A DNA stretch of 50,409 bases from Victivallales bacterium (GTDB lineage Bacteria > Verrucomicrobiota > Lentisphaeria > Oligosphaerales > Oligosphaeraceae), in assembly GCA_017535315.1 (NCBI GenBank), contig JAFXUD010000092.1, forward strand, positions 1-50,409, in the 5' to 3' direction. The first letter of the stretch is position 1. Each line of letters starts with the position of its first letter. Positions 18,354-43,033 of this stretch are shown in pieces. The position numbers were made by a program, and so were the translations under genes. The notes beneath the pieces are model-generated. The model saw only the letters and a list, made by a program, of their open reading frames with translations, searched no databases and had not been told where the DNA came from.

Positions 18354-19094
18354 ATGCTTTCACAACTTGAAATAGAGAAGATAATTAATCTTCATAATGA
18401 ACAGATTGCGCAGGGCAAAACCCTGCGCAATCTGAAAAAACGCCAAGTGACGCGTATCCTCTGCGACGGAAAGCGCTACGTGGTGAAGGCCTATCTTCGA
18501 CGGTGGTGGCACAGGCTGTTTATCCAAGCCCCCTGCAAGACCGCAAGCGTTGCCCTGCTGGAAGGTTTCACGCCTCCTTGCATCGGCGACACAGGCAAAG
18601 AGTTACTCTGGCAGTACACCATCTATGAGGATGCGGGCAACCAGGATCTCTACGCCATCATGCGCGACGCGCGTCTCCCTAATGGTTTTGAGCAACTTTA
18701 CGCTAGCGCAGGGGAACTGCTGGCAAGAGTTCACCAAAAGGGAATCTACCATGGTGATACGAAGCCGCCTAACTTCGTCATCAACACCGCCATCACCGCC
18801 CTGCCCCCAGTTGTAATCGTCGATTGCGACCACATCATCGCCTATAACAAGCTCCCCGACCATCGTCGCATCTTCAACCTCGCGCAATTCATCGCCACCA
18901 ACGATATCCACCCTGACAATCTTGAACTCTACCCGACATGTATGCAGGCCTTTGCCGCGCAATACGCCAAAACCATGAGTCTCTCGCTAGAACAACTGGA
19001 CGTTCTCCTGACGAAGGCAGTCCAGGTCGCACTTTCTTCGCCACGCATTGAAAGGCGCGTCCCACAGGAGACGCTGTTCTCGCTGTTCTCGTGA
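18354..19094 (+). CDS. Lipopolysaccharide-kinase-like (WaaP-type) small kinase
   Basis: 246 residues with a minimal kinase fold. K45 in YVVKAY is the likely ATP lysine, the catalytic loop is H133-G-D135-TKPPN140, and the metal site is in IVDCD (D157/D159). HGD-x-x-x-x-N is characteristic of WaaP/RIO/Bud32-like kinases rather than classical Ser/Thr kinases. Members phosphorylate LPS core heptose or other small targets; hldD elsewhere in the window makes an LPS target plausible. The start lies two bases after the nitrilase stop. The first codons contain a perfect 14-bp inverted repeat (18402-18434). A second, divergent kinase of this type is at 25619-26470. Confidence 0.72.
   Translation: MLSQLEIEKIINLHNEQIAQGKTLRNLKKRQVTRILCDGKRYVVKAYLRRWWHRLFIQAPCKTASVALLEGFTPPCIGDTGKELLWQYTIYEDAGNQDLYAIMRDARLPNGFEQLYASAGELLARVHQKGIYHGDTKPPNFVINTAITALPPVVIVDCDHIIAYNKLPDHRRIFNLAQFIATNDIHPDNLELYPTCMQAFAAQYAKTMSLSLEQLDVLLTKAVQVALSSPRIERRVPQETLFSLFS
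18402..18434. other. Perfect 14-bp inverted repeat within kinase gene
   Basis: CAGATTGCGCAGGG and its exact complement CCCTGCGCAATCTG flank CAAAA. It lies in codons about 17-27 of the kinase gene and would form a strong mRNA hairpin 46 bases after the start codon. There is no T-tract. It may slow early translation or be coincidental. Confidence 0.6.
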
Positions 19095-19109
19095 GTTTCT
19101 CAGAGAATT

Positions 19110-19443
19110 AAAAAGGGACTTGAGGGACAGGAGGGACTTGAGGGACGCAAGGGGCACAAAAAACAATATGGGACAACAGACGCAGGACAAAGAACAAGAG
19201 TTTTTGCCTTGTTTTCATGCCACTTGCGTCCCTCATGTCTCTCCTGTCCCTCAAGTCTCTTAAAGCTATCATGTTCCTTGTGTCCCTCAAGTCCTTTATA
19301 GCCATCATGTTTTTCATGCCACTTGCGTCCCTTAAGTCCCTTATAGCCATCATGTTTTTCATGCCACTTGCGTCTCTCATGTCCCTCCTGTCCCTCAAGT
19401 CCCTTAAAGTCATCATGTTCCTTGCGTCCCTCAAGTCCCTTAC
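19110..19443. repeat. Nonamer array with inverted left arm
   Basis: Between kinase and copper ATPase genes. From 19219 to 19443, 25 consecutive 9-bp units (consensus near GTCCCTCAA, variants GTCCCTTAA, AGCCATCAT, GTTTTTCAT, GCCACTTGC) keep an exact 9-base register. Nine-unit blocks 19219-19299 and 19363-19443 correspond unit by unit, giving an 81-bp higher-order repeat; five units are also repeated at 19300-19344 and 19345-19389. To the left, 19113-19155 carries the reverse-complement nonamers (GGGACTTGA, GGGACAGGA) and pairs with 19219-19261 with about four mismatches in 43 bases. Frames are open on both strands only because the period is a multiple of three. Confidence 0.93.
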
Positions 19444-19462
19444 TACAACCAACTATTGAATT

Positions 19463-21706
19463 ATGGAAAAGCAATACGACGTTCTAGGCATGCATTGCGC
19501 GGGCTGCGCAGCCCGCGTGGAAAAAAAGGCCGCCGCCGTTCCTGGCGTGAAGGAGGCAAAAGTCAATTTGGTGGCGCACCTGCTAACCATCAAAGCAGAG
19601 GATTCAGAATCGCTGGATAACGCGATTGTTCAAGCAGTTACATCAGCAGGGTTCAAATGTGCCCCAATCGAGACAGCAAATCCAGCGAACCCAACGCCAG
19701 CCCCCCCCCTTACAGAAGAGCAAGAAGTCAAACAGCGTCTGATACCCTCCCTCGTCTGGTGGCTGCTCATTGTCGTTCTGATGCTCATGAAGATGCACAT
19801 TCACCCAACTGGCTCCGCGACAGCTTTCAATGTCACAATCGGGCTTCTCCAGATGCTGATGACGCTGATAGTCTTCGCCATCAACCGCAGGGTTTTCACC
19901 AATGGCTTCAAACACCTTTTCCAGGAGCCAGACATGGATTCACTCATCGCATTGGCCTCCACTGCATCCATCCTCCTCAGCGGCTTCACCATCGTGCTGC
20001 TTGCCCTCGGCAAAACCGCCTTGGGATATTTCTACTTTGAATCGGCAGCCATGATTCTGGTCATCGTCAATTTCGGCAAGTACTTGGAAGCAAAGGCGAA
20101 AAAGAAGGCAGGAGACGCTCTTGAGAAACTTCGTGACCTGGCCCCCAAGACCGTCCTGAAGGTTGTCGGCAACCAGGAGGTGGAGGCACCAGCCGACACC
20201 ATCCGCCCTGGCGATATCATCGCCGTCCGCCCTGGTTCGCGCATCCCGCTTGACGGAACCGTCACCGAAGGTTTCTCCTCCATTGACGAATCCTCCCTCA
20301 CTGGCGAAAGCATGCCCCGTGACGTAACTCCTGATGCAAAGGTCTTTGCAGGAACGATGAACTTGACTGGAGCATTCCGCTTCAAGGCAGAACAGGTTGG
20401 CCAGGAAACGCTCCTGGCAGGCATCATCAAACTGGTCGCAAACTCCTCCGTCGCCCGTAGCAAGGCCGTGCGCCTGGCCGATGCCATCGCCGCCCGCTTC
20501 GTACCCATCGTCTCCCTCATCGCCATTATCACTCTCATCGTTCATATTCTTCTTGGACATTCGCTTGCCGAATCACTTGGCTACGCCATCACCGTCCTGG
20601 TCATCTCCTGTCCCTGCGCCCTGGGGCTGGCGACCCCCGTCGCCGTCACCGTCTCCATGGGACGCTCCGCCAAGGAGGGCATCCTTTTTAAAGGCGGCGA
20701 AGCACTGGAGAAGCTCTGCAAAATCGACACGGTCTTTCTGGATAAAACAGGTACCCTCACCACAGGCAAGCCAACCGTGACCGACATCATCCCCTACGAC
20801 GGCTCCAGCGAGGCCAATCTGCTTGCGCTTGTTGCCGCCCTGGAGAGCTCTAGCGAGCACCCCATTGCCCATTGCATCCGCCAAGCCGCCACTGACAAGG
20901 GACTTGCCATATCCCCTGCCACCGCTTTCAAAACCATCCCTGGCAAGGGCATCACGGCCGCCCTCAACGGGATGCCATATTACGCTGGAACCATTGAGCT
21001 GATAAGGGAAGTCGCACCAGAACTGGATATGAAGGAAGCCTCCCAAAAAGCAGAGGAACTCCAAAAACAGGGGAAGACCCTCCTTTTTATCGCCGCGCTT
21101 TGCGGCACACAAGGCAGGCTCCATGGCCTCATCGCCGTGCGTGATGAAGCCGCGCCCAGCAGCAAAGCCGCCATTGAGGTGCTGCACGGAATGGGGCTGT
21201 CCGTTGCCATGCTCTCGGGCGACTCGCAAAACACGGCCAGTGCTATCGCACAAGAACTTGGCATCACCGATGTAAAAGCAGGATTACTGCCAGCCGACAA
21301 GGCGACTGCCGTCACCGAAGCCAAGCAGGCGGGGAAACAGGTTGCCATGGTCGGCGATGGCATCAACGACGCACCCGCCCTGGCAGCAGCAGAGCTGGGA
21401 ATCGCCGTAGGCACTGGTACCGACATCGCCATGGAGTGCGCGGATATTGTTATCATGCGAAACGACATCAGCTGCGTCGCCTCCGCCATCCGCATTGCAA
21501 AGGCAACTGTCCGCATCATCCGCCAGAATCTCTTCTGGGCCTTCTTCTACAACGTCCTCGCCATCCCCGTAGCGGCGGGCTGCCTGTCACGTTATGGCAT
21601 CACCTTGAATCCCATCATCGCGGCTGCCGCCATGAGCATGAGCAGCCTCTGCGTCGTCTCCAACGCCCTGCGGCTGTTGAAAACACGAAACCAATACCCC
21701 AAATAG
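19463..21706 (+). CDS. copA: Copper-exporting P1B-type ATPase
   Basis: 747 residues. One N-terminal heavy-metal domain with C12-x-x-C15 (GMHCAGCAARVE), then the P-type core: TGES at 280-283, the CPC metal motif at 383-385 in SCPCALG, phosphorylated D427 in DKTGTLT, H466-P467 in SSEHPIA and GDGIND from 631. CPC plus the HP motif assigns it to Cu(I)/Ag(I) exporters. Eight membrane helices are expected and the hydrophobic stretches agree. It exports copper from the cytosol. There is no copper chaperone or CueR-like regulator next to it. The upstream spacer is entirely a nonamer array, so its promoter must lie within or before that array. Confidence 0.93.
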   Translation: MEKQYDVLGMHCAGCAARVEKKAAAVPGVKEAKVNLVAHLLTIKAEDSESLDNAIVQAVTSAGFKCAPIETANPANPTPAPPLTEEQEVKQRLIPSLVWWLLIVVLMLMKMHIHPTGSATAFNVTIGLLQMLMTLIVFAINRRVFTNGFKHLFQEPDMDSLIALASTASILLSGFTIVLLALGKTALGYFYFESAAMILVIVNFGKYLEAKAKKKAGDALEKLRDLAPKTVLKVVGNQEVEAPADTIRPGDIIAVRPGSRIPLDGTVTEGFSSIDESSLTGESMPRDVTPDAKVFAGTMNLTGAFRFKAEQVGQETLLAGIIKLVANSSVARSKAVRLADAIAARFVPIVSLIAIITLIVHILLGHSLAESLGYAITVLVISCPCALGLATPVAVTVSMGRSAKEGILFKGGEALEKLCKIDTVFLDKTGTLTTGKPTVTDIIPYDGSSEANLLALVAALESSSEHPIAHCIRQAATDKGLAISPATAFKTIPGKGITAALNGMPYYAGTIELIREVAPELDMKEASQKAEELQKQGKTLLFIAALCGTQGRLHGLIAVRDEAAPSSKAAIEVLHGMGLSVAMLSGDSQNTASAIAQELGITDVKAGLLPADKATAVTEAKQAGKQVAMVGDGINDAPALAAAELGIAVGTGTDIAMECADIVIMRNDISCVASAIRIAKATVRIIRQNLFWAFFYNVLAIPVAAGCLSRYGITLNPIIAAAAMSMSSLCVVSNALRLLKTRNQYPK

Positions 21707-32147: not shown

Positions 32148-32187
32148 CGAAATTTATCCGTCTTGTGGTCTTTTTTCACGTGCAAAC

Positions 32188-32341
32188 GAGGTAATTTCAA
32201 AACTAGCGCGAAATGCGCTAAGAGATGGGCGCAGTGGCCAAGGCAACGGTTCGAAGCTGCAAGGACGTGCGGAAAGAGGCGTTGCCAACGCCAATGGGTT
32301 CATGTCAACGCGCATTTCGATGATAGTTCTGAAATTACCTC
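32188..32341. repeat. 154-bp inverted-repeat element
   Basis: Terminal inverted repeats of about 32 bases: left GAGGTAATTTCAAAACTAGC..GCGAAATGCGC, right (complement) GAGGTAATTTCAGAACTATC..CGAAATGCGC. The interior has a GGCAACG/CGTTGCC stem (about 32240-32290). No open frame of use. It lies between the divergent protease and XRE-cupin genes, so it may influence both promoters. The rest of the spacer (32342-32463) is AT-rich. Confidence 0.85.
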
Positions 32342-40222: not shown

Positions 40223-40346
40223 TGACAAACGACCTAAACGTCGAAAGACATTTGAACGACAAAAAACACTCTCAAACAACTGTTCTTTGTCCTTTTTATG
40301 CCACTTACGTCGTTTAGGTCCTTTAGGTCATTTACGTCCTTTGTAC
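40223..40346. repeat. Short nonamer inverted-repeat array between convergent genes
   Basis: The left arm holds CGACCTAAA, CGTCGAAAG and related 9-bp steps (40230-40265); the right arm holds GCCACTTAC, GTCGTTTAG, GTCCTTTAG, GTCATTTAC and GTCCTTTGT in 9-base register (40300-40344). The boxes ACAAAAAAC, a shared GTTCTTTGTCC (inverted) and ATGCCACTTRCGTC occur also at 19110-19230. It is placed between convergent gene ends, where it may serve as a bidirectional terminator. Confidence 0.75.
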
Positions 40347-42852: not shown

Positions 42853-42896
42853 AAACTTGGGAGAAGAGAGCGACGGGAAGGCCGGAAGAGACGGGA

Positions 42897-42980
42897 GGGA
42901 CAGGGGACTTGGGACAGGGGACTTGGGACAGGGGACAGGGGACTTGGGACAGGGGACTTGGGACAGGGGACTTGGGATCT
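42897..42980. repeat. Heptamer array (GGGACWK)
   Basis: Eleven exact 7-bp units, GGGACAG or GGGACTT, in order AG TT AG TT AG AG TT AG TT AG TT (42897-42973), then one degenerate unit GGGATCT. It occupies the gap between ribokinase and the secreted giant. Frames across it are open because of repeat bias, not coding. Confidence 0.95.
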
Positions 42981-43033
42981 TGCCATTTCAACAAAAAAAC
43001 ATCTGCTACTGTCACACATCTTACAAACCGACC

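Follow-up and report, generated by a model that had tools for sequence, protein, structure and literature searches.

Architecture of the repeat locus

The stretch of DNA analyzed here (the window; 50,409 nucleotides) is contig C39 of a 4.9-Mb draft genome in 96 contigs. Judging from one protein, the host probably belongs to Lentisphaerota, near Victivallales: an ABC-F protein encoded nearby shares 63% identity with its counterpart in a Victivallales MAG, 58% and 50% with those of two Lentisphaerae MAGs, 44% with Verrucomicrobia and Kiritimatiellae, and 37% with a planctomycete. Within it, a kinase-like ORF on the plus strand (18354–19094, 246 aa), which has no Pfam match and is 83% identical to its orthologue in the congener G001, is followed on the same strand by a gene for a copA-type P-type ATPase with an HMA domain (19463–21706). 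The 368-bp spacer separating the two genes is occupied in its entirety by a hairpin built from 9-bp units. An earlier note on this sequence had described 25 in-register nonamers at 19219–19443, and these do fill the interval exactly; identity within the array is 0.56 at lag 9, compared with 0.19–0.31 at lags 5–8 and 10–13. The motif GGGAC-N4-GGGAC occurs seven times in the window, every time within this array, against 0.11 occurrences expected from shuffles. The nine-unit block of 81 bp that had been reported to recur is present at 19219–19299 and again at 19363–19443, with 73 of 81 positions identical.

Upstream of these units lies a purine-rich left arm, for which mirrored pairing over about 39 of 43 positions had been claimed. 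We measured 88% complementarity between 19113–19162 and 19212–19261 (44 of 50 nucleotides paired), which is of the same order, and found 19113–19171 to be 88% complementary over 59 nucleotides to 19347–19405 as well. Folded as RNA, the segment 19095–19462 reaches −131 kcal/mol (z = −10.2 relative to shuffles), and the DNA fold of 19105–19275 has a z of −12.5.

The left arm, or G-arm (19113–19158, plus strand), begins 19 bp past the stop codon of the kinase-like ORF and consists, from 19114 to 19158, of four nonamers (AGGGACTTG AGGGACAGG AGGGACTTG AGGGACGCA) and a cap (AGGGGCACA). Pairing and the DNA fold place the primary hairpin loop at 19159–19211. The first C-arm (19212–19261, minus strand), made up of a cap (TGCCACTTGC) and four nonamers, reads as a G-arm on the minus strand. 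It is followed by a linker that keeps the 9-bp register and includes a truncated two-unit arm (19262–19310, with the arm at 19282–19296), and then by a truncated second C-arm of a cap and two nonamers (19311–19341, minus strand). The third C-arm (19356–19405, minus strand; cap and four nonamers) is the one with which the G-arm preferentially pairs when the segment is folded as RNA, and together with the linker after it makes up the 81-bp block in its second occurrence. The truncated fourth C-arm (19417–19443, minus strand) ends 20 bp upstream of the copA start codon at 19463. The focal copy has one G-arm and four C-arms in all; rather than a homogeneous array, its right side is a set of several five-unit arms (four nonamers with their cap), of which two are truncated, joined by linkers that happen to preserve the 9-bp register here. 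Elsewhere in the genome, arm-to-arm distances also include 56, 57, 61, and 65 bp.

An ORF of 80 aa (19217–19459) and long minus-strand ORFs run through the array. Because the 9-bp unit lacks a stop and keeps a frame open, these appear to us to be frames merely left open rather than genes. An assembly artefact was rejected as well, as arrays are internal to long contigs (such as C78, 425 kb) and the single-contig genome of the relative G008 also bears nonamer arrays, of a different sequence.

A genome-wide family with a common design

The focal repeat is a member of a genome-wide family and very unlikely to be a copA switch, because an estimated 150 or so copies adjoin unrelated genes. The pattern AGGGAC-N3-AGGGAC occurs 261 times in the genome (141 + 120), while the reversed control occurs three times (2 + 1). 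Contig C78, the longest known to us in this draft, holds 12 loci of at least three units in 380 contiguous kb, and since the other stretches were chosen for containing matches, it alone provides a roughly unbiased density; extrapolation from it gives an estimate of about 150 loci per genome. Many contigs of the draft terminate within such arrays, which may make this an undercount, and the array positions explain where many draft contigs stop.

The copies share a common design, in which four nonamers (AGNGACNNG) and a cap (GCAAGKGGC) are followed by a loop and the mirrored arm. The canonical G-arm reads AGGGACNNG, AGNGACNNG, AGNGACNNG, AGNGACGCA, and the cap AGKGGC, after which come the loop and the C-arm as its mirror. 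Arms can be tandemly duplicated, the focal copy being an instance. In the register layout, a length of exactly four units is seen in 75 of 124 chains. As the chain search itself required AGNGAC, we reran the arm test with the cap GCAAG[GT]GGC as anchor and a weak lag-9 filter. This gave 61 distinct arms, in which the four cap-side nonamers are 92–100% conserved at positions 1, 2, 4, 5, 6, and 9 (97–100% in units 2–4) and variable at positions 3, 7, and 8. Unit 1 has G at position 3 in 87% of arms, and in unit 4, which continues into the cap, positions 7–9 are set by the anchor. The pattern AG[ACG]GAC[AGT][GT]G is matched by 160 of the 183 nonamers in units 1–3, and the fifth nonamer outward is unconserved except for a T-rich lead. 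Such a fixed count and such fixed positions should be expected from neither free slippage nor decay.

The family also has a polarity. Simple clusters with both arms are G-then-C in 21 cases and C-then-G in one, the latter cut by a contig end. The G-arm also comes first at GGGAC loci of other organisms (27 versus 5), and an unrelated heptamer family (TAGTGGT and variants) has the same polarity, 15 to 0 in two species.

Arms match their own partners best. At variable sites, the match to the partner arm is 0.62, compared with 0.48 for arms of other loci (permutation p = 5e-5), and complementary double changes between arms number 39 against 22.9 ± 4.3 (sd) expected. It is established that polymerase template switching can give rise to hairpins and preserve them (PMC8794818). 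Switching between arms would produce this better own-arm match, but so would copying of the whole hairpin, and arm complementarity is therefore no proof of selection on structure; common descent of the copies may account for it instead of correction or selection.

The four-unit arms, single polarity, position-specific variation, and own-partner matching support the argument of the earlier note that the order of the repeat exceeds plain replication slippage, and its idea of a maintained element is supported for the family as a whole. A seemingly simple repeat can thus combine polarity with a constant number of units and conservation at particular positions, features that slippage models do not give. 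We know of no description of paired, polar nonamer arms of fixed number, nor did we find one in the literature searched.

Genomic placement and turnover

Every placeable array of at least three units is intergenic, and copies typically lie 5–60 bp past a stop codon. With genes taken from a simple codon-usage caller, the median distance is 28 bp to flanking stop codons versus 166 bp to start codons. Tandem gaps hold 21 copies, convergent gaps 4, and divergent gaps 3, where the background numbers of such gaps are 129, 18, and 34. Copies adjoin the 3′ side of genes for GH127, a Na/Ala symporter, pyruvate formate lyase, MATE, MetW, and others, and we found no common theme among the genes beside the scanned copies. 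The earlier proposal of a structured RNA in the gap between the kinase and copper-exporter genes finds no support as a statement about this locus in particular, given that the element adjoins many unrelated genes as well.

Unlinked copies share sequence beyond the arms. Of 41 linkers past the cap, 20 recur at other loci, compared with 2 in shuffles. Some recurrences involve contig ends, where a single site may have entered the assembly twice, but there are also pairs in which one or both loci are internal, such as C33:36337 and C30:1301.

We compared sites with the congener G001, in which the flanks are 82–88% identical. The earlier note had named absence of the spacer from related strains as an outcome that would count against its interpretation, and at the sister copy C78:133168 the element is indeed missing in G001, with the flanks intact; a target-site duplication is unreadable at this one clean empty site. 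At C78:159605, the G001 spacer instead carries three successive copies of an unrelated palindrome. Copies turn over between species of one genus. At the focal locus, the G001 contig terminates within the kinase orthologue, and neither of two congeners had a close copA.

Another dispersed repeat is present in the same DNA. Window positions 32185–32341 hold one of about 40 genome copies of a 155-bp palindromic, MITE-like repeat, which is also found in many copies in the congeners G001 and G002. Its copy at C78:131957 has an empty site in a congener, with a possible short AAAGA duplication.

Periods of seven and nine

In 712 kb of the genome, we found 30 intergenic short tandem arrays at period 7 and 77 at period 9, plus multiples, with one array each at 6 and 10 and none at 5, 8, or 11–13. 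Coding regions have nearly no arrays except at multiples of three. The unit families differ in sequence (GGGACNNNA, GGGACNN, TAGTGRT, AATTAGC, TCTAGANNN, and GTCNTTTA), and the arms of the TAG heptamers range from 3 to 30 units. Periods 7 and 9 also dominate in relatives of the same order, among them the single-contig genome G008, which have further families, and G024 and G039 also have some arrays at period 8 or 10. In G039, from another family of the order, arms consist of three to four AGGGAC units with spacers of their own (ACC, TCA, and GCC). This strict 7- and 9-bp spectrum, largely common across the order, is a testable regularity for the origin and spread of short intergenic repeats.

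Several further arrays were seen along the way. A heptamer array of GGGACAG and GGGACTT (window 42869–42982; periods 7, 14, and 35) lies 17 bp past a stop codon, is preceded by degenerate nonamers, and is a 7-bp sister of the focal family. A nonamer hairpin of GTCNTTTA units sits between two convergent genes at 40227–40342, and the contig start (1–215) falls within a 14-bp (2 × 7) repeat, CCCTAGCAGACCTA. Another nonamer family, a repeated 9-bp hairpin (AAACCACAGATTACACAGATTACACAGAT .. ATCTGTGTAATCTGTGTAATCTGTGGTTT), is present at four G001 loci (L317, L345, L347, and L352) and in G024. A CRISPR-like array with the repeat CTCAAACAGCACCCTTTAACCGAAAGGTGATTGAGAC and a period of about 73–77 bp lies at 216422–218126 of C78 in the focal genome (G000; locus L224).

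Hairpins of GGGAC nonamers recur in Lentisphaerota, Acidobacteriota, Thermoanaerobaculia, and other groups, in a scan that required at least three units and shows where such hairpins occur rather than how common they are. Among the matches listed, paired arms of bacteria in other phyla mostly have four or five units and those of viral contigs mostly three. The IMG/VR viral contigs in question (L416, L475, L480, L487, and L488) carry the G-arm first and have long loops of roughly 70–90 nucleotides, possibly representing a different prophage element. The cap pattern of the focal genome was found in viral contigs in just two near-identical sequences, both without arrays. A phage or plasmid origin was rejected, with no similar DNA among 50,697 phage and 72,556 plasmid records.

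Origin and possible function of the family

We consider the locus to be one copy of a dispersed, non-autonomous, REP-like palindromic repeat family, and we give this reading a probability of roughly 0.6. Copies may spread as non-autonomous units through a hairpin single-stranded DNA intermediate handled by an enzyme, while slippage would duplicate arms locally and template switching between arms (quasipalindrome correction) would keep them complementary. The conserved nonamer positions would then be kept because some factor, most likely the mobilizing enzyme, reads the arm of four AGNGACNNG units. If transcribed, the hairpin would be read as part of 3′ UTRs, where by analogy with REPs it could protect the upstream mRNA or insulate the next gene.

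Our search for a mobilizing enzyme found none. RAYT/Y1_Tnp was rejected in this role, as its abundance does not track the arrays (G014 has 76 nonamer pairs and no Y1_Tnp) and the two are not co-located: about 1.5 kb around 30 Y1_Tnp loci in the relatives and the focal genome contained no GGGAC array, and the array closest to the RAYT at C78:90597 is 14.7 kb off. A Y1_Tnp/RAYT gene on C78 (locus L218, 10278–11247) has inverted copies of GTCGCCCCTACGGGGCTC repeats on either flank, the arrangement of a classical REPtron, here in Lentisphaerota. The absence of a GTAG or CGTC tag, the lack of tracking, the lack of nearby arrays, and a RAYT with repeats of its own together argue that this is not a RAYT-mobilized REP.

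The foremost alternative is purely mutational: short tandem repeats that grew by slippage at preferred steps of 7 and 9 bp, were mirrored by snap-back template switching, and are immobile and functionless, as in the view taken of LSSRs and STRRs. The near confinement of arrays to 7 bp, 9 bp, and their multiples (30 and 77, with none at 8) fits this well, as do the numerous unrelated units found both in this genome and in its relatives and the TAG heptamer arms, whose 3 to 30 units are what slippage predicts. A preference for heptamers is known, as reported by Mrazek (2007) in the account of PMC4679880, and hairpins can arise and persist by template switching (PMC8794818). However, GGGAC arms peak at exactly four units, their variation is confined mainly to three nonamer positions, and unlinked loci have linkers in common, and we therefore regard this explanation as somewhat unlikely for the focal family. 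The GGGAC family does not behave like a free-running simple repeat, though its heptamer counterparts in this genome may.

A broader reading of the cross-phylum matches, which strikes us as unlikely, is a class of mobile or protein-read DNA or RNA hairpins with about four phased nonamers and an invariant AGNGAC core, recognized by an undescribed enzyme or repeat protein, in which the three variable positions would give each copy its identity.

It is quite improbable that the element is a host-beneficial bidirectional transcription terminator or mRNA 3′-end stabilizer under selection. Its position just past stop codons and its palindromic form on both strands would suit such a role, but tandem, convergent, and divergent gaps are all occupied, copies turn over rapidly between congeners, and the focal copy has no terminator-like site; an intrinsic terminator was rejected there for lack of a GC-rich stem with a T run. 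A cis-acting structured RNA specifically regulating the copper exporter or kinase mRNA, including a copA riboswitch, is highly improbable: the strong hairpin (z = −10.2) does span the whole spacer between same-strand genes, but the other copies lie beside unrelated genes, no sigma-70-like promoter was found in the region or any promoter at the array, the spacer has no terminator-like site, and Rfam gave no match above the gathering score, its sub-threshold miRNA matches merely reflecting a long hairpin. A G-quadruplex element with four GGG tracts per arm is scarcely credible as a general rule, for although G3-N6 × 4 fits the focal G-arm and G4 folds are formed by G-rich heptamers from Nostoc and Xanthomonas (PMC4692102), the motif is present in just 25 of 63 arms, unit 4 is usually AGCGAC, and the TAG, TCTAGA, and CACAGATTA families are incapable of forming one.

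Comparison with known repeat systems

REP and BIME repeats (PMC3733652, PMC2817692) are high-copy intergenic palindromes that lie mostly behind genes, form inverted pairs and tandem groups, and turn over between related genomes; the focal family, with its 261 intergenic nonamer pairs and its position mainly downstream of coding regions, shares these traits. REPs are, however, single palindromes of 20–40 bp tagged with GTAG and CGTC (PMC3733652) and associated with RAYTs (PMC2817692), whereas the arms described here are about 45 bp long, consist of four phased nonamers, and end in AAGGGAC and GCAAGKGGC, neither end bearing a fixed, unpaired tag of GTAG or CGTC. They have no RAYT association, and the one RAYT examined carries its own classical repeats (GTCGCCCCTACGGGGC).

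A second group for comparison is formed by the heptanucleotide STRRs of filamentous cyanobacteria and the LSSRs (Mrazek 2007, as cited in PMC4679880 and PMC4692102). These are short degenerate tandem units, intergenic and sporadic between species, with several unrelated families per genome and heptamers dominant; our arrays are likewise tandem, intergenic, within the range of 5–11 bp per unit, and longer than chance. The focal genome differs in that nonamers are the dominant units and the arms are mirrored, with a constant polarity, while for the GGGGA(C/T)T repeats of Nostoc “only a few paired repeats” could form inverted repeats (PMC4692102). The slippage-variable unit number of STRRs and LSSRs is seen in the TAG heptamers and not in the GGGAC arms. 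The TAACTGA heptamers of Beggiatoaceae (PMC4679880) also comprise more than 100 intergenic sets of one short unit and are patchy across phyla, but they are direct repeats of 2–6 copies upstream of start codons and form no hairpin, unlike the palindromic GGGAC copies behind stops.

MITEs, too, are non-autonomous palindromic copies, but we saw no transposon-like terminal inverted repeats, the one clean empty site had no readable target duplication, and the true MITE-like 155-bp palindrome of the same genome looks quite unlike the GGGAC family. In hairpins maintained by template switching, the two arms should match one another better than they match the arms of other copies, as is the case here, although common descent gives the same sign. 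The earlier note had not recognized a described family. This holds insofar as Rfam had no match above threshold and GGGAC was not found in the REP literature searched, but not for the class, as the focal family resembles the REP and STRR repeats and is of a known kind, yet differs from both.
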